A stretch of 64,000 bases of DNA, taken from Chitinivibrionales bacterium. GTDB taxonomy: Bacteria; Fibrobacterota; Chitinivibrionia; Chitinivibrionales; WJKA01. The stretch is taken from positions 1 through 64,000 of the forward strand of contig WJLZ01000159.1 in assembly GCA_014728215.1 (NCBI GenBank). The letters run 5' to 3'. The notes under the pieces were generated by a model that worked only from the letters and a program-made list of their open reading frames with translations, was not told the origin of the DNA and made no database searches. Shown one piece after another: positions 5,587 to 27,013 of this stretch (the first letter of the stretch is position 1; the number at the start of each line of letters is the position of its first letter). The position numbers and the translations under genes are program-made.

Positions 5587-8145
5587 TCAAGCAATATGGG
5601 CTTTGATTTCTTTCAAAAAGATCGTTCCATACATCTCAAGCTTTACATCACCGACACCGTTGACCATGCTCATCGCCCCTAATGAAGATGGCATCCTGGC
5701 GCACATGTCGTGAAGAGTTCTGTCGGAAAAGATGATATAGGGCGGAACTCCCTTTTCGCTTGCCAGGTGGCGGCGAAGGGCACGCAAACGATCGAAAAGC
5801 ACGATATCCCCGCCTGAGGCTTTTACAGGGCGAGATGGCTTTCCGGTCCTGGCGTTAGGCGCGGCATTTTTCGGTGTTTCAGCTTTGAGCGCCGTTTTCA
5901 ATGAGCGCTCGTTGCGAAGAATGCGGAATGCATCAACGCAAAGGGTAACAACAGGATAATTTCCAGCGGTGCGGTCGAGGATATCCTGTCCGATCATTTC
6001 GTCAATAAGTCCCTGCCAGTATTTCTTGGGTTTTTCCTTGCCTTTGCCGTAAAATTCGAGTTCATTATGGCCCTGTTCCCGGATACGTTTTGTATTGGCG
6101 CCCCGGATAATATCGATAATATGCAGGATACCGAACCGCTCGTGTGTTTGGTGGATTATTTTGATTATCAAACGTGCATCACCGGTGGCATCGTGCAGAA
6201 GGACACTTGATTCACAAATGTCGCAGGCATCGCATTTGTCACTTTCAGCCATTTCGCCAAAATAGGCGAGGATCTTTTTTCGGCGGCATATGGTCCGGTT
6301 CTGGGCATAGGTGACCATTTCATTCAGCGATGCCCCCAGCCGTCGGCGCTCTGTTGTGTCTTCGATTTTGTCGATAAAATACCGGATTTTAGGGACATCG
6401 CCCCATCCGAAAAAGAGCACGCATTCCGCCTTATCGCCGTCTCTTCCGGCACGGCCGGTCTCCTGGTAGTACGATTCCATGTTCTTGGGAAGATCGCCGT
6501 GGATGACAAACCGGACATTGGGTTTGTCGATTCCCATACCGAAGGCGATCGTCGCCACGACCACATCGACTTCATCACGATTAAAGGCCTCCTGATTTCG
6601 TTGCCGTATTTCATTGTCGAGACCGGCATGATAGGGGATCGCCCGGATGCCGCATTTGCAGAGATATTCGGCAGTGGATTCGACATTGTTGCGCGTTGTA
6701 CGATACACAATGCCGCTTCCGGCCTGTGTATTGATAATATACTCGGCAATCTGCTTTTCGATATCCGATTTCTGTTCTGTCCGGTAGTAAAGGTTTGGAC
6801 GGTTGAAGGATGCTCGTACAGTAAGTGGATTACGGAGTCCCAGCCGTGTGATAATATCATTCTGGACCCGGTGGGTTGCCGTTGCCGTGAATGCGGCAAC
6901 CGGTACTTCGGGAAATCGTTTGATAATTTCGGATAAGTACAAATACTCAGGCCTGAAATCGTGACCCCAGTCGGAAATGCAATGGGCTTCATCGACCGCA
7001 GCCATGCATAGGGGGACGTGCGAGAGATTATTCAGAAAGGTATCCATGGTGAAACGTTCGGGCGAAATATAAAGGAGATCAATAGCTCCATTGTAAAGAT
7101 CGCCGAAAACCTGGATGCGTTCCTGGTCACTTTGTGCCGAATTGATACAGGCGGCCCTGATTCCGTTGGTGCGCGCGGCATCCACCTGATCTTTCATCAG
7201 AGCAATAAGCGGGCTGATAACAAGGCAGGTTCCGTTCATCATCAATGAGGGCATCTGGAAGCAGAGCGATTTGCCGCCACCGGTGGGCATGACCGAAAAG
7301 CAGTCGCGTCCCGAAACGATCGCTTCGACAATCTCACGCTGATAGGGCCTGAATGTGTCGAAACCGAATACCGATTTCAGTGTATGGAGCATTCTCTGGT
7401 TGTTGATAGCCATTCCGGTTTTTGATGCTGTTTCCCTGCTGCTGGCAGCTGCAGCCGCACTCTGCGGCCATGTACCAGGTTCCAGTTCGACAACGCCCGC
7501 AATTAATTTCCAGCATGGAAGGCCTTCTTTTGTCCAGCTTTTCGGGGTATAGGGCATGCTCAGGGTGACTGTTATCAGGCAGTGTTGCCCGGGGACATAG
7601 CCCTTTTCGAGTTTTTCGATAAGTACCGGATCGGTAATCCGCGTGCACAACCGTCGCCCCGACAGCGAAACAAAGGAACCGTTCCATTTCTGTCCGCCCC
7701 GGGCACTCGGTCCCACGCTGAATGCTTCGAACTCGAATGCTTCGACAAGCTGCAGCGTGCGGCGCTGCTCTGTATCAAGTAAGGTAAGATACTCAACCGT
7801 CACGTAAATTTCACTGTTGTGAAGGATGTGTTTGTCCTTTGTGCAGTATCGAAACAACTGTTCGGGTTCGAGGCGGCCTTTTAGCTGCCACTTTCCGGGA
7901 AGCAGGGACAGGTTTTCCGATTCAAAGCCGAAATCGGGCCCCGCCGAACCGAGGGGTATTTCAATCATGTCGCCGAGTTGAGGTAATTGCCCGTCGATGG
8001 TCATAGTGCTCCGCTCAATCCGGCCGTCATCGAGATGCGACACAGGTCGGATCCATGTGCCCGATTCAGGATCGATTCCTGCAAAACAGAAAGCCACGTG
8101 TTTCCGGGAATTGGCAAGACAGATCACTTTTCTTACAGGTGGCAT
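5587..8145 (-). CDS. RecQ-family DNA helicase with N-terminal dual-OB-like domain
   Basis: 852 residues, about 240 longer than a standard RecQ because of an N-terminal extension. Residues 1-225 begin 'KVICLANSRKHVAFCFAGID' and continue with 'WIRPVS' and 'GDMIEIPL', resembling the stand-alone dual-OB-fold domain found in bacterial gene clusters and predicted to bind nucleic acid. Then come a RecQ core with Walker A MPTGGGKS (286-293) and DEAH (385-388), the arginine-finger motif 'QETGRAGRDG' (561-570), a zinc-binding set Cys620, 638, 641 and 644, a winged-helix region and a C-terminal HRDC domain (about 775-852). All helicase motifs look intact. The ATG at 8145 overlaps the end of the upstream DUF488 gene by 13 bases, so translation is probably coupled. 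The fusion plus DUF488 partners suggests a dedicated nucleic-acid processing or defence role rather than housekeeping RecQ. Confidence 0.88.
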   Translation of the reverse strand: MPPVRKVICLANSRKHVAFCFAGIDPESGTWIRPVSHLDDGRIERSTMTIDGQLPQLGDMIEIPLGSAGPDFGFESENLSLLPGKWQLKGRLEPEQLFRYCTKDKHILHNSEIYVTVEYLTLLDTEQRRTLQLVEAFEFEAFSVGPSARGGQKWNGSFVSLSGRRLCTRITDPVLIEKLEKGYVPGQHCLITVTLSMPYTPKSWTKEGLPCWKLIAGVVELEPGTWPQSAAAAASSRETASKTGMAINNQRMLHTLKSVFGFDTFRPYQREIVEAIVSGRDCFSVMPTGGGKSLCFQMPSLMMNGTCLVISPLIALMKDQVDAARTNGIRAACINSAQSDQERIQVFGDLYNGAIDLLYISPERFTMDTFLNNLSHVPLCMAAVDEAHCISDWGHDFRPEYLYLSEIIKRFPEVPVAAFTATATHRVQNDIITRLGLRNPLTVRASFNRPNLYYRTEQKSDIEKQIAEYIINTQAGSGIVYRTTRNNVESTAEYLCKCGIRAIPYHAGLDNEIRQRNQEAFNRDEVDVVVATIAFGMGIDKPNVRFVIHGDLPKNMESYYQETGRAGRDGDKAECVLFFGWGDVPKIRYFIDKIEDTTERRRLGASLNEMVTYAQNRTICRRKKILAYFGEMAESDKCDACDICESSVLLHDATGDARLIIKIIHQTHERFGILHIIDIIRGANTKRIREQGHNELEFYGKGKEKPKKYWQGLIDEMIGQDILDRTAGNYPVVTLCVDAFRILRNERSLKTALKAETPKNAAPNARTGKPSRPVKASGGDIVLFDRLRALRRHLASEKGVPPYIIFSDRTLHDMCARMPSSLGAMSMVNGVGDVKLEMYGTIFLKEIKAHIA

Positions 8146-8579
8146 ATCTCAAGGGCTCCACGTTTGGTTTGAAGATATTCGGCTACAAGCCGCCGGTGAC
8201 AGCATGTCCCCGCGGGTTCGGAACACAGAAGACAGGCGTGATCGAGCAAGGCCAAATCGATTTCCTTTTCAATCTGCCTTCTTTCGGTCAGCCGCAGGAA
8301 TTGTCGTCCAAATTCATCCCAGTCGATTTGGTTCTTTTTAAGAGAATCGAGCAACTCTTTTGTTGGCGCAAAGTCGGGACGATGGATATAATCGATACCG
8401 CACAGGGTTCTCAGAAAATAGGCCAGATCATCACGCTTGGCAAAACCCGCGAGCTGAGAAACATTGTTGAGCCGAATATCGATTACCCGCTTGACACCCG
8501 CACCTGCAAGTGACGAAAAGAAATGTTGTGCACTTTTCTGTGTAAATCCGATAGTGAACAATCTGGTTTTATTCACCAT
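8133..8579 (-). CDS. DUF488 family protein (second of a tandem pair)
   Basis: 148 residues from the ATG at 8577-8579, which overlaps the end of the upstream DUF488 gene by 11 bases. A longer frame exists, but the family starts at 'RLFTIGFTQKSAQHFF' (the 'tiGhs...f...L' start), and the extra residues look non-homologous. Family marks: 'VIDIRLN' (the 'vvDvR' strand) and, near the end, CLLCSEPAGTCCHRRLVA, the conserved Cys-Glu then Cys-His-Arg element. DUF488 has no established activity; the conserved Cys/His/Arg set suggests a small enzyme acting on nucleic acid or nucleotides. It shares only moderate similarity with its neighbour, so this is an old duplication. Confidence 0.85.
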   Translation of the reverse strand: MVNKTRLFTIGFTQKSAQHFFSSLAGAGVKRVIDIRLNNVSQLAGFAKRDDLAYFLRTLCGIDYIHRPDFAPTKELLDSLKKNQIDWDEFGRQFLRLTERRQIEKEIDLALLDHACLLCSEPAGTCCHRRLVAEYLQTKRGALEICHL

Positions 8580-9156
8580 TTTTCTCCGTGTATGCGACTT
8601 TTTCTCCCTGGAGGGCATATGCTTTTTCAATAAGTTCATCATCGGAGGCAAACAGATCGCTCTGGTCGATATGGTGTTCCCGCCGAAGGCGCATTTCTGT
8701 TTCCCGGTTGTCTTCAACCGAGCCGTTGTCGAGAATATGCTCTATCCGAAGGTCCTCTGAACGGAGATTACGGGACACCAGAACCATACGGTGGCAGCTA
8801 AGGGGGTCTTTTTCCGCGCACAGAAGACAACTGTTGCAGGAATCTATACCTGCTTTGAGGCGCTCGAGCCCCTTTCGAAACAAACCGGTTTTCGCGACAA
8901 GGTCAAACTGTACTTTACCGTTGATATAACATTCGGCAACCGGAGACCGTGCTCCCAGTTCCCGTCCCATAAACGCATATCCAATGTTTGCATTGCGCAA
9001 TGCATTTTGAAGCGGTTCCTTATTGAATTGCGGATTGAAACGGCTGTAGGGTGATGAGCGCACATCGACAACCGCCGAAATCGAATGCATTGTCAATAAT
9101 TCGATCAGGCGTTCGATCGAATGAGTTGAATGGCCAATGGTATGGATTGTTCGCAT
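8569..9156 (-). CDS. DUF488 family protein (first of a tandem pair)
   Basis: 195 residues. It begins 'MRTIHTIGHSTHSIERLIELL', then 'VVDVRSSPYSRFNPQFN', the classic DUF488 signature, and carries CLLCAEKDPLSCHR near residues 110-123. The C-terminal 60 residues are charged and extend beyond the core. It is first in the three-gene operon DUF488, DUF488, RecQ, in which each stop overlaps the next start, implying co-expression at fixed ratio. The biochemical role of the family is unknown. No promoter could be assigned. A hairpin-forming repeat lies 33 bases upstream. Confidence 0.88.
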   Translation of the reverse strand: MRTIHTIGHSTHSIERLIELLTMHSISAVVDVRSSPYSRFNPQFNKEPLQNALRNANIGYAFMGRELGARSPVAECYINGKVQFDLVAKTGLFRKGLERLKAGIDSCNSCLLCAEKDPLSCHRMVLVSRNLRSEDLRIEHILDNGSVEDNRETEMRLRREHHIDQSDLFASDDELIEKAYALQGEKVAYTEKNGE

Positions 9157-23461: not shown

Positions 23462-26400
23462 CTATTTGTTAATATTTTCGAATATATCTTCCCGCCATTC
23501 AATTACAAAGCATTCTTGTGAAATATTATCCGGAGCAAGCCAGCCGGCATAATGGGAGTTTGGCATAAAATAAGCAGCTCCCTTTTTCCGGATCATCTCT
23601 TTGTCCCAGGTACTTTCAAATTCCTGATAATTGTTTTTTGCCCCAGAATCCCATCCCAGCTCATTTCCAGGAGGTGTGCGGACAAGGCCAAGGAAAAACT
23701 GCGCATTCTGGGTACATTTTGTACCAAGCCAGGTTTTGAGATTATTATATATTGCATTGTTAGTCGGTGAGACAAGAGATCCCTTGTGCATTTTACAAAA
23801 GGTTTGGGCCTTTTTGATATCAAATGGTGTCGGAACAGGCAGATAATATCGATCGCCTACTCGCTCGGCAAAAGCCATCAAGCTGCAAGTAGCGCCGCTT
23901 TTACCGGAAAGAGCATCAAACACTGCCGGCATAATTTTGAATACATATTCTTTTTTTAAGCCATTAATATATTTGATCGTTTGACACTTTTTTATATACT
24001 TAAGACGTGTATGATTGGTGATATCAATAGATAATCCGATAAGAGGAAGTGACGCGACGATTTCTAAGGCGGAACTGTCGAGTTTCAATCCCTGTATGTT
24101 CAGGCTAAGAAGGTCCTTGTTTTTGATAGGAGATAAATCAGTGACATCTGTGTAGCTTATGTCGAGGGTTGAAAGCGGGGTATTTTTAAGGGACGACAAA
24201 TCCTTGACCGGTGTGTCCTTCAAGATTAGATCTGATAGTTTCAGGTTTTCTATTGTGTGTAAATCGTAAAAGTCGGTAGATGTAAGATCGGCATAGAAGA
24301 GGTCCATTGTTGCCAGAGGCGAGAAATCTCCAATAGAGCATCCTTCAACTTTAAGTGTCTTCAGTGGAATGTCTCTAAGTGGCTCAATTGAAGAAATCAT
24401 CATTCCGGAGGCATCGAGAAATTTCAACTCAGGTTGTGCCACTGCTGCACAATTGTTGGTTGGGACATTATTCAGATAGACGATTTCAAGCGGTGCTCCT
24501 TTTAGTGCTGAAATGTCGGAGACATGGATACAGTTCTGAATATTAATGCTGTTCAGTGGCATACCTTTAAGGGCAGAAAGATCATTGATAGAAGTTCCAT
24601 AGGCATAAAATGTTGTGAGTTGAGCATGACGCAGGGGATTGATAGATGAAATATTTTTGCAATAATTCATGTTGAGAAAAACAAGCGGCATTCCTCTGAG
24701 GGGTGAAATATCGTTAATTGAAGTGCATTTGCTTATATTCAGCCAGCGAAGATCCATGGAGGTAAGCGGAGAAAGGGTTTTGATACTGCTCCAGTTGTGA
24801 ATATCCAGTCGGGAAAGCGGCATATATCTCAGGGGGGAAAGGGAGGTTATACTGTGACGGATATTTTGATTCCCTATTTCAAAACTTAATCCGTTTTCAA
24901 TCATTGCGAGGGTGAAATCGGTATTGGGCCAGACTTTTTGCAGAAGTGATTTGTAGTATGGAAGTTTATTTTGTACCATAATCAGATATTCGGAATTCTC
25001 CATTCCCTTAAATGCCGACATTTTTCTTGTGGGATCTATGGCGCCATCATAAATTTCTCGATAAATATCATAGGCGGTCGTAAAATTACCTTTGTGGAGT
25101 TGACGTCCGGCAAGTTCAAGTGCATCTTCTTTAAGAGGAGTGCCCATTTTGAATATTTTAACATTATCGATCCATAATTCCGATCCCCAACCCGTGATTC
25201 CGACCGTATTGCGGTCTTTGCCGTGCAGCCCCTTATCGTCGACAATATCGATTACAACTTTTCCATTAACAGTCATGGTAAGATGATTGCCCACCCGCTC
25301 GGCTCTGATATGATAATGTTTGCCTTTTACCACGGGCGACTCATATTTCTGCCATAATATGGCATTCGCTCGCAGGGCTCTGATACTGGTGTTATCCTGA
25401 CTGCCATATTGTAGAAGGTATCCGTTGGAGTAAACCCTTTTTAACTGGGTCGACCGGGTAACGTCAAAAAGACAGGATATATCATTCAGGTAATTGCTCT
25501 CCTGATGACAATCGAATTCAATGGCAATGTCACCGGTCATCGGCTGCTTCAGCAGGAGTGTTTGCGGTGTACCGCCTTTTATACAAAACTCACCATTGAT
25601 GACTTTACAGTCAGGCTTTACAGGAACGAAACTTCTGCTTCCATTAATAACTTTATACTGGCCGTAAATGATGTCCCAGTGTTTAAGGAAATCAGGATCG
25701 GAAAAGTTGTCTTCGAAAACAAGCACCCACTCACGTTCCCTTTCTTTTATGTCCTTTTGTATAAGCGCCATTTTTTCTTTTTGTTCCTGCCTATAGCTTC
25801 TGAGCGCCTGCTCGGCCTTTTCCCGTTCCTGAATATTCAGATAGGTAAAGAATATACCAGAAAAAAGCAGAATAATCAGAGCGATTCCAGTTGAGATACT
25901 CACCGCTTTGCTCCGCTTTATGAGCTTGACAATAGTTTCCCAGGTAGAATCTTCTTTAGCGCTTACCGGCTTATTTCCCAGATAAAGATCTATATCATGT
26001 TTCAATTCGTCGACATTCTGGTATCGATCGCATTTACTTTCCGATAAAGCTTTTGTGGCAATGGCGGAGAGCTCTCCGGGGATATGCCTCGATGGCGGAA
26101 CACAGGTATCGATAGGGACAATGTCGGCGGTGCGGGCTTTTTCGATCATTTCTTTTGGAGTGTTGCCCTGTATAGGTGGATTAAGGGTCAATAGTTCATA
26201 CAGGATCGCACCGAGGGCGAAAATATCCGAGCGTTCATCAATATCGTGCAGGGCTCCTTTTGCCTGCTCCGGCGGCATATAGGCAATGGTTCCCCATATT
26301 TTGCCGTCAATGTCATCCTCGTTCATATCTTCCTCGAGCACAAGGAGACCTGTTGATGTCTCTGAAAGGTTTCTGTCTGTCCGGCATAGCGACGAATCAT

Positions 26401-27013
26401 GACTGATGCTTTTTGCCAGCCCCCAATCCATAACCTGAACCTCGCCGTAATCACCTATCATGATATTTGCAGGTTTTAGGTCGCGGTGTATAATACTTTT
26501 TGAATGGGCATATGCAACGGCGTTGCATATGTCAATGAATATATCGATGAGTTGCGCCAGCGTTTTTTCCGAGAAAAAATCATCCGGATTGTTCCGGTAC
26601 TCCTGAAGGATATCTTTGAGGCTCCTCCCTTTCACCAGTTTCATGGTAAAATAGAGAAGACCGTCTTTATTGATTGAAAAGTCATGGAGCGGAACGATAT
26701 TGGGATGCTCAAGGCGCCCGGTAATACGGGCCTCATTGATAAACCGGATACACCGTTCTTTATCTTCCTCGGCACCGATTGTTTTAAGGGCGACTTCACG
26801 GCCGATATCCTGATCATCGGCGCGATAAATAACCCCCATACCACCTTCGGCAAGATTCTCATGAATTGTGTATTTGTCGCTTTTAAGCGGACGGCCGAAT
26901 AATTCGTAGACTGTTGAATGATATAAAGGCAGGCTGGATGCGGACTGATTGGTTTCCGGCTCTGAATGTGCGGACCCTGGATTTTTATTTTGATTATTCC
27001 CGGCCAATTTCAT
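23462..27013 (-). CDS. Membrane Ser/Thr protein kinase with LRR repeats and C-type lectin tail
   Basis: 1183 residues. Residues 47-345 form a Hanks-type kinase: glycine loop NLAEGGMGVIYR (53-64), the ATP-anchoring Lys in VALK (77), HRDLKPANI (176-184), a DWG metal motif in 'VMDWGLAKS' (195-202) in place of DFG, and PPEQ (247-250). A membrane helix follows at 371-392, then a coiled stretch, an LamG/DUF1080-type beta-sandwich ('NFSDPDFLKHWDIIYGQYKV'), about twelve leucine-rich repeats ('ISPLRGMPLVFLNMNYCKNI') and a C-terminal C-type lectin-like domain with 'WLGTKCTQNAQFFLGL'. The kinase is cytoplasmic, the rest extracytoplasmic: a receptor-like layout sensing sugar or protein ligands. VMDWGLAK is common in Planctomycete kinases. 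The substrate is unknown. Confidence 0.9.
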   Translation of the reverse strand: MKLAGNNQNKNPGSAHSEPETNQSASSLPLYHSTVYELFGRPLKSDKYTIHENLAEGGMGVIYRADDQDIGREVALKTIGAEEDKERCIRFINEARITGRLEHPNIVPLHDFSINKDGLLYFTMKLVKGRSLKDILQEYRNNPDDFFSEKTLAQLIDIFIDICNAVAYAHSKSIIHRDLKPANIMIGDYGEVQVMDWGLAKSISHDSSLCRTDRNLSETSTGLLVLEEDMNEDDIDGKIWGTIAYMPPEQAKGALHDIDERSDIFALGAILYELLTLNPPIQGNTPKEMIEKARTADIVPIDTCVPPSRHIPGELSAIATKALSESKCDRYQNVDELKHDIDLYLGNKPVSAKEDSTWETIVKLIKRSKAVSISTGIALIILLFSGIFFTYLNIQEREKAEQALRSYRQEQKEKMALIQKDIKEREREWVLVFEDNFSDPDFLKHWDIIYGQYKVINGSRSFVPVKPDCKVINGEFCIKGGTPQTLLLKQPMTGDIAIEFDCHQESNYLNDISCLFDVTRSTQLKRVYSNGYLLQYGSQDNTSIRALRANAILWQKYESPVVKGKHYHIRAERVGNHLTMTVNGKVVIDIVDDKGLHGKDRNTVGITGWGSELWIDNVKIFKMGTPLKEDALELAGRQLHKGNFTTAYDIYREIYDGAIDPTRKMSAFKGMENSEYLIMVQNKLPYYKSLLQKVWPNTDFTLAMIENGLSFEIGNQNIRHSITSLSPLRYMPLSRLDIHNWSSIKTLSPLTSMDLRWLNISKCTSINDISPLRGMPLVFLNMNYCKNISSINPLRHAQLTTFYAYGTSINDLSALKGMPLNSINIQNCIHVSDISALKGAPLEIVYLNNVPTNNCAAVAQPELKFLDASGMMISSIEPLRDIPLKTLKVEGCSIGDFSPLATMDLFYADLTSTDFYDLHTIENLKLSDLILKDTPVKDLSSLKNTPLSTLDISYTDVTDLSPIKNKDLLSLNIQGLKLDSSALEIVASLPLIGLSIDITNHTRLKYIKKCQTIKYINGLKKEYVFKIMPAVFDALSGKSGATCSLMAFAERVGDRYYLPVPTPFDIKKAQTFCKMHKGSLVSPTNNAIYNNLKTWLGTKCTQNAQFFLGLVRTPPGNELGWDSGAKNNYQEFESTWDKEMIRKKGAAYFMPNSHYAGWLAPDNISQECFVIEWREDIFENINK

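Follow-up and report, generated by a model that had tools for sequence, protein, structure and literature searches.

A three-gene operon on the minus strand (positions 5587-9156) of a 64,000-nucleotide stretch of Chitinivibrionales bacterium DNA (assembly GCA_014728215.1, contig WJLZ01000159.1, positions 1 to 64,000; hereafter "the window") encodes two DUF488 proteins, designated DUF488A and DUF488B, and a RecQ helicase that carries a dual-OB (DuOB) domain at its N-terminus. We read this operon as a form of the DuOB-DUF488 system, listed by PADLOC as phage-defence candidate (PDC) PDC-M45, in which DuOB has been fused to RecQ. In it, DNA would be bound and unwound, and modified or trimmed by the DUF488 enzymes, most probably as a defence against invaders; the case for this reading, taken as a whole, seems to us evenly balanced. 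There is no doubt about the parts or their linkage, which were established, like the intact active sites, the repeated fusions and the mobile or defence setting of the relatives, from sequence. A system of this kind is on record as a candidate already; its new element looks to be the RecQ fusion.

Organization of the operon

The earlier note on this DNA, made from its letters alone, had described three overlapping genes at this place, and three co-directional open reading frames were found there:

9156-8569, minus strand: DUF488A, 195 residues, ATG start; open reading frame, first gene of the operon, PDC-M45B-like
8579-8133, minus strand: DUF488B, 148 residues from the ATG at 8579; open reading frame, second gene, PDC-M45C-like
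8145-5587, minus strand: DuOB-RecQ fusion, 852 residues, ATG start; open reading frame, third gene
8569-8579, minus strand: overlap of DUF488A and DUF488B, 11 nucleotides, from the sequence
8133-8145, minus strand: overlap of DUF488B and DuOB-RecQ, 13 nucleotides, from the sequence

The overlaps had been given as 8-13 nucleotides. The larger figure stands; the smaller applies only if DUF488B starts at the GTG at 8576, as the ATG start (N-terminus MVNKTRLFTIG) gives 11. Judged by sequence comparison, the three-gene arrangement is not a product of chance, because the same operon recurs, with protein identities of 56-61%, in a genome from another family within the window's taxonomic order (G035, locus L018), and also in two genomes (L068 and L069) from a different phylum.

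The DuOB domain

7492-8130, minus strand: DuOB domain, residues 6-218 of the fusion protein, PDC-M45A-like; from Pfam PF22557, PADLOC and the structure model

The N-terminus of the helicase had been likened to a dual-OB domain, and the Pfam profile PF22557 (DuOB) bears this out: residues 6-218 are matched with E=7.6e-34 and 118 bits (cut-off 27), covering positions 2-210 of the 210 in the profile. The same domain is matched by PADLOC PDC-M45A (E=1.2e-22), and of the conserved alignment positions, the 20 that were checked are all retained by the window copy. The alignment from which an AlphaFold2 model was calculated combined the window DuOB with that of L013 and relatives from viral contigs; the model had a pLDDT of 91.5 and a pTM of 0.89. 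Structure prediction, named in the earlier note as a check, returned OB-type folds: the best match in the PDB was the tandem-OB domain p202 HIN2 (E=3.1e-4, probability 0.99), and POT1, Teb1, RPA and SSB were also among the leading matches. Whole-length TM-scores were low (ca. 0.3), as is expected if the two barrels sit at a different angle. The model supports the OB nature of the domain; it does not support a specific or close relationship to any one structure. A profile search of the PDB for sequence relatives of DuOB, DUF488A and DUF488B returned none that was credible.

These matches also bear on whether the system could be directed at RNA, with RNA or free nucleotides as the target of the OB folds and DUF488 proteins, and with RecQ adding only general nucleic-acid tracking. 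OB folds bind RNA as well, ribosomal OB proteins (S12) appear further down the structure-match list, and sister systems (see below) carry an mSLOG domain, the SLOG fold being associated with nucleotide ligands. The leading structure matches, however, are DNA binders, and the helicase family to which DuOB was repeatedly joined works on DNA. We therefore regard a system acting on RNA as very unlikely.

The RecQ helicase and the repeated origin of the fusion

6436-7350, minus strand: RecQ helicase core, DEAD (residues 266-428) and Helicase_C (467-570); from Pfam and motifs
6211-6402, minus strand: RecQ zinc-binding domain (582-645); from Pfam RecQ_Zn_bind and a four-cysteine pattern
5875-6192, minus strand: RQC domain (652-757); from Pfam
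5605-5799, minus strand: HRDC domain (783-847); from Pfam

The rest of the 852-residue protein is an intact RecQ, as had been claimed. Its domain set is complete, helicase motifs 0, I, II, III, V and VI and the zinc cysteines were all found, and the NCBIfam model recQ (TIGR01389) was passed with 701.8 bits against a cut-off of 640.2. The core, zinc site, RQC and HRDC are held in common with RecQ helicases of the RecQ-RQC-HRDC type (with or without HTH_40); unlike an ordinary RecQ, the window protein has the additional N-terminal DuOB domain. HTH_40 is carried by the near relatives L017 and L018, but not by the window copy.

The DuOB domain must have been joined to RecQ separately at least twice, and probably three times, because the domain orders are opposite and the fusions lie on separate RecQ branches beside unfused RecQs. 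In a tree of 70 RecQ sequences, the five DuOB-RecQ proteins group in a single clade (support 100/96) that is sister to the unfused RecQ of G037, a genome of the window's family (100/98). For the RecQ-DuOB protein of L013, the sister is an unfused RecQ from its own phylum (100/98), and the remaining four RecQ-DuOB proteins make up a third clade together with the unfused RecQ L233 (98/93). A smaller DuOB tree agrees on the N-terminal clade (100/99) and elsewhere has poor resolution and long branches. This repeated joining to a DNA helicase suggests that the DuOB-DUF488 system acts on DNA and is the main support for that substrate.

At E <= 1e-60, the fused protein is the sole RecQ found in the window genome, and the fused RecQ is the sole one in G000, G168, G539, G333, G218 and G313. 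Because the window genome holds no other, the fused protein may double as the cell's general RecQ. One could go further and take it for a housekeeping RecQ to which DuOB was added as a further DNA-binding tail; the DUF488 genes would then be remnants or loosely associated, and the window genome would have no dedicated system. Its standing as the only RecQ is consistent with this, as are the nearest unfused relative, a RecQ of the same family (G037, at a place not syntenic with the window operon), and a DuOB-RecQ without DUF488 in G020. Set against these points, in the window, L018, L068 and L069 alike the DUF488 genes are both intact, overlap tightly and keep their conserved sites; the RecQ joins arose repeatedly next to DUF488; and the conserved DuOB residues that were checked are all retained. 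A purely housekeeping role strikes us as improbable.

A place in the Dpd 7-deazaguanine DNA modification system was also considered, as PADLOC models labelled DpdF match the window helicase strongly. It was rejected: the NCBIfam DpdF model scored 195 bits against a cut-off of 550, while recQ was passed, and no other Dpd gene was seen beside the window RecQ. The PADLOC models concerned (PDLC02861 and PDLC02864) match nearly the full length of this RecQ (E=2.9e-222) and could mislabel RecQs as Dpd.

The DUF488 enzymes

8788-8820, minus strand: DUF488A active-site motif, C113-x-E115...C121-H122-R123; invariant in 24 of 24 relatives
8193-8225, minus strand: DUF488B active-site motif, C119-x-E121...C127-H128-R129; invariant in alignments of 20 and 26 relatives

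Both proteins exceed the Pfam DUF488 cut-off of 22.2 bits, DUF488A with 82.1 and DUF488B with 74.9, and DUF488B also matches DUF488-N3a (35.9 bits). Their PADLOC matches are to PDC-M45B (E=5.8e-76) and PDC-M45C (E=1.5e-62), respectively. The Cys/His/Arg motif that had been noticed in the two proteins is kept in each, together with a Glu (Cys-x-Glu...Cys-His-Arg). In the structure model of DUF488B (pLDDT 87.9), C119 is located at the end of a strand and R129 at the start of a helix, which is the layout of a PTP-like loop. Archaeal and human phosphatases of the PTP type, SsoPTP among them, come closest to the model, but the match is weak (E=0.017). Some lone DUF488 matches in E. coli and on plasmids represent unrelated contexts.

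Relatives and genomic setting

DuOB is rare: it occurs in 3 of the 168 genomes from the window's phylum and in 18 of 395 sampled from Thermodesulfobacteriota, the phylum of the L013 genome. The surroundings of 23 DuOB matches, all found without reference to DUF488, were inspected; one further match, below the cut-off, was excluded. DUF488 adjoins DuOB in 20 of the 23, and the exceptions are two DuOB fragments at contig ends and G020. A survey of this co-occurrence had been suggested in the earlier note, whose proposal of a three-component nucleic-acid-processing system fits. RecQ is fused to DuOB in 10 of the 23 matches, and three layouts were seen: a free DuOB of ca. 230 residues with DUF488A and DUF488B; RecQ-HTH_40-DuOB, then DUF488A and DUF488B; and, in the window, L018, L068 and L069, DUF488A and DUF488B, then DuOB-RecQ. 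The common form of the system is a free DuOB gene without RecQ, accompanied either by two DUF488 genes or by one DUF488 gene and an mSLOG-DUF4326 gene.

Viral contigs were scanned with a DUF488B profile, the whole DuOB alignment being too diverse for scanning; a first scan of them with a single DuOB sequence had given no matches. The profile yielded 33 good loci, in most of which DuOB is a neighbour and the third gene encodes DUF488A or an mSLOG-DUF4326 protein. A two-gene DuOB-DUF488B form in these contigs was considered and dropped, as DUF4326 stands beside most. DuOB was absent from the sequenced phage records searched, and the viral-contig loci are for this reason probably prophages or islands. 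In E. coli, the DuOB-DUF488-DUF4326 set belongs to elements integrated at icd and at ffs/ybaA, and DUF488 and DUF4326 are also carried by a mobilizable plasmid of 4.2 kb; members of the system are found on plasmids, viral contigs and E. coli islands. Free systems adjoin type I restriction-modification genes (L059, L066, L067), IetAS and BrxL (L060), PglX (L073), a type III CRISPR system (L020) and CBASS (L021), surroundings typical of defence from which those of the window copy differ.

Relatives of DUF488B also occur on plasmids without DuOB (L210:6004-6435, NZ_KY887594.1; L212:6004-6444, NZ_CP026129.1). A stand-alone relative on an IncC plasmid adjoins uvrA and frmR, and another on an Acinetobacter plasmid adjoins uvrB and a formaldehyde-sensitive repressor, which hints that some DUF488 proteins may repair DNA adducts. 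The window operon could serve the repair of chemically damaged or blocked DNA ends, with DuOB-RecQ opening the site and the DUF488 proteins stripping blocking groups; its mobile spread would then reflect stress resistance, not immunity. Besides these plasmid neighbours, the membership of RecQ in a repair helicase family and the presence of the fused RecQ as the only one in the genomes listed above are in keeping with such a function. The patchy occurrence of DuOB and the recurrent restriction, BREX, CRISPR and CBASS neighbours are, by contrast, typical of defence, and a repair function appears to us possible, if doubtful.

Relation to known systems

The components M45A, M45B and M45C of PDC-M45 correspond to the window's DuOB, DUF488A and DUF488B, and free-DuOB loci match as well. 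The window holds a full-length DuOB and DUF488 proteins of the M45B and M45C kinds with intact sites, the parts that define membership. The PDC-M45A profiles are of stand-alone size (188-318 positions), whereas in the window the domain forms part of a protein with a complete RecQ, encoded by the last gene of the operon. The PDC systems were derived by a guilt-by-embedding screen; the majority remain unvalidated (PMC12988326). The earlier note knew of no description of this set; in kind, that does not hold, as PADLOC PDC-M45 matches it and Pfam and NCBI name the dual-OB domain. The general association had already been noticed, since the Pfam names DuOB, DUF488-N3a and mSLOG exist. These names reportedly come from Burroughs and Aravind in 2023, who are said to have described a RapZ-C-DUF488-DUF4326 clade of the rhodanese-phosphatase superfamily and to have predicted that DUF488 and DUF4326 process DNA ends in conflict systems. 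Literature searches on PDC-M45, and on DuOB or DUF488 with RecQ, gave no account of the fusion, although one may exist elsewhere.

The sets of DuOB, DUF488 and mSLOG-DUF4326 in E. coli islands and viral contigs have in common with the window a DuOB beside DUF488B and three genes, in a mobile setting. They differ in that a DUF4326 protein with an mSLOG domain replaces DUF488A, and no RecQ fusion was seen among the sets inspected. The DUF4326 proteins of these sister systems (L206:10162-10752 and relatives) have an N-terminal minimal SLOG domain and may sense or use a nucleotide ligand.

Proposed mechanism

In the reading that we favour, the tandem-OB module would bind single-stranded DNA, a DNA end or a junction, and the fused RecQ motor would unwind the adjoining duplex to expose strands or termini. 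DUF488A and DUF488B, as putative cysteine enzymes of a rhodanese/PTP-like fold, would then act on the exposed nucleotide by transfer or removal at the sugar-phosphate or terminus, and invading DNA would be blocked or degraded. We infer the DNA substrate, the order of the steps, the chemistry and the anti-invader role. A bolder version, which we advance only tentatively, is helicase-coupled immunity, in which RecQ would feed DNA ends to a DUF488 pair with an undescribed terminus modification or removal activity, resident RecQs having been recruited several times independently.

Several observations weigh against the RecQ-fused defence system as we read it. No tested phenotype was found for any system member. 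Around the window operon there is no recognised defence system, only a UvrD-family helicase and a kinase, which match broad paralogue models; a defence-island or mobile-element setting, usual but not defining for the relatives, was not found for the window copy. G020 has a DuOB-RecQ (L017:9552-12458) and no DUF488 anywhere in its 95% complete genome, a state that represents either loss of the DUF488 enzymes or independent use of the fusion. The general system does not require RecQ, because G467, G279 and G254 have the free system with no RecQ match at E <= 1e-60. Finally, the DUF488B fold match is weak, and the stand-alone DUF488B relatives beside uvrA or uvrB and formaldehyde-response genes suit repair.

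We know of no established substrate for the widespread DuOB-DUF488 systems. What is surprising and useful here is that helicase fusions arose independently. Found in both orders, these fusions are evidence supplied by nature itself that the DuOB partner acts on DNA where it is unwound or broken. They also offer, in one polypeptide, a motor activity that can be measured and used to probe the function of the DUF488 enzymes, and they illustrate how a core repair enzyme may be recruited by a mobile module that is a candidate for defence.

Flanking and other genes of the window

The operon is flanked by genes for a DUF6675 protein and an SDR oxidoreductase, with gaps of ca. 180 nucleotides upstream and ca. 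170 nucleotides downstream. The DUF6675 gene was absent from the same-genus and same-family genomes compared. A promoter scan gave 8 sites, with 4.6 expected, an uninformative difference. At 23462-27013 on the minus strand, the window encodes a 1183-residue protein of unusual domain mixture, with an N-terminal Ser/Thr kinase and matches to 3-keto-disaccharide hydrolase, leucine-rich repeats and a C-type lectin domain.

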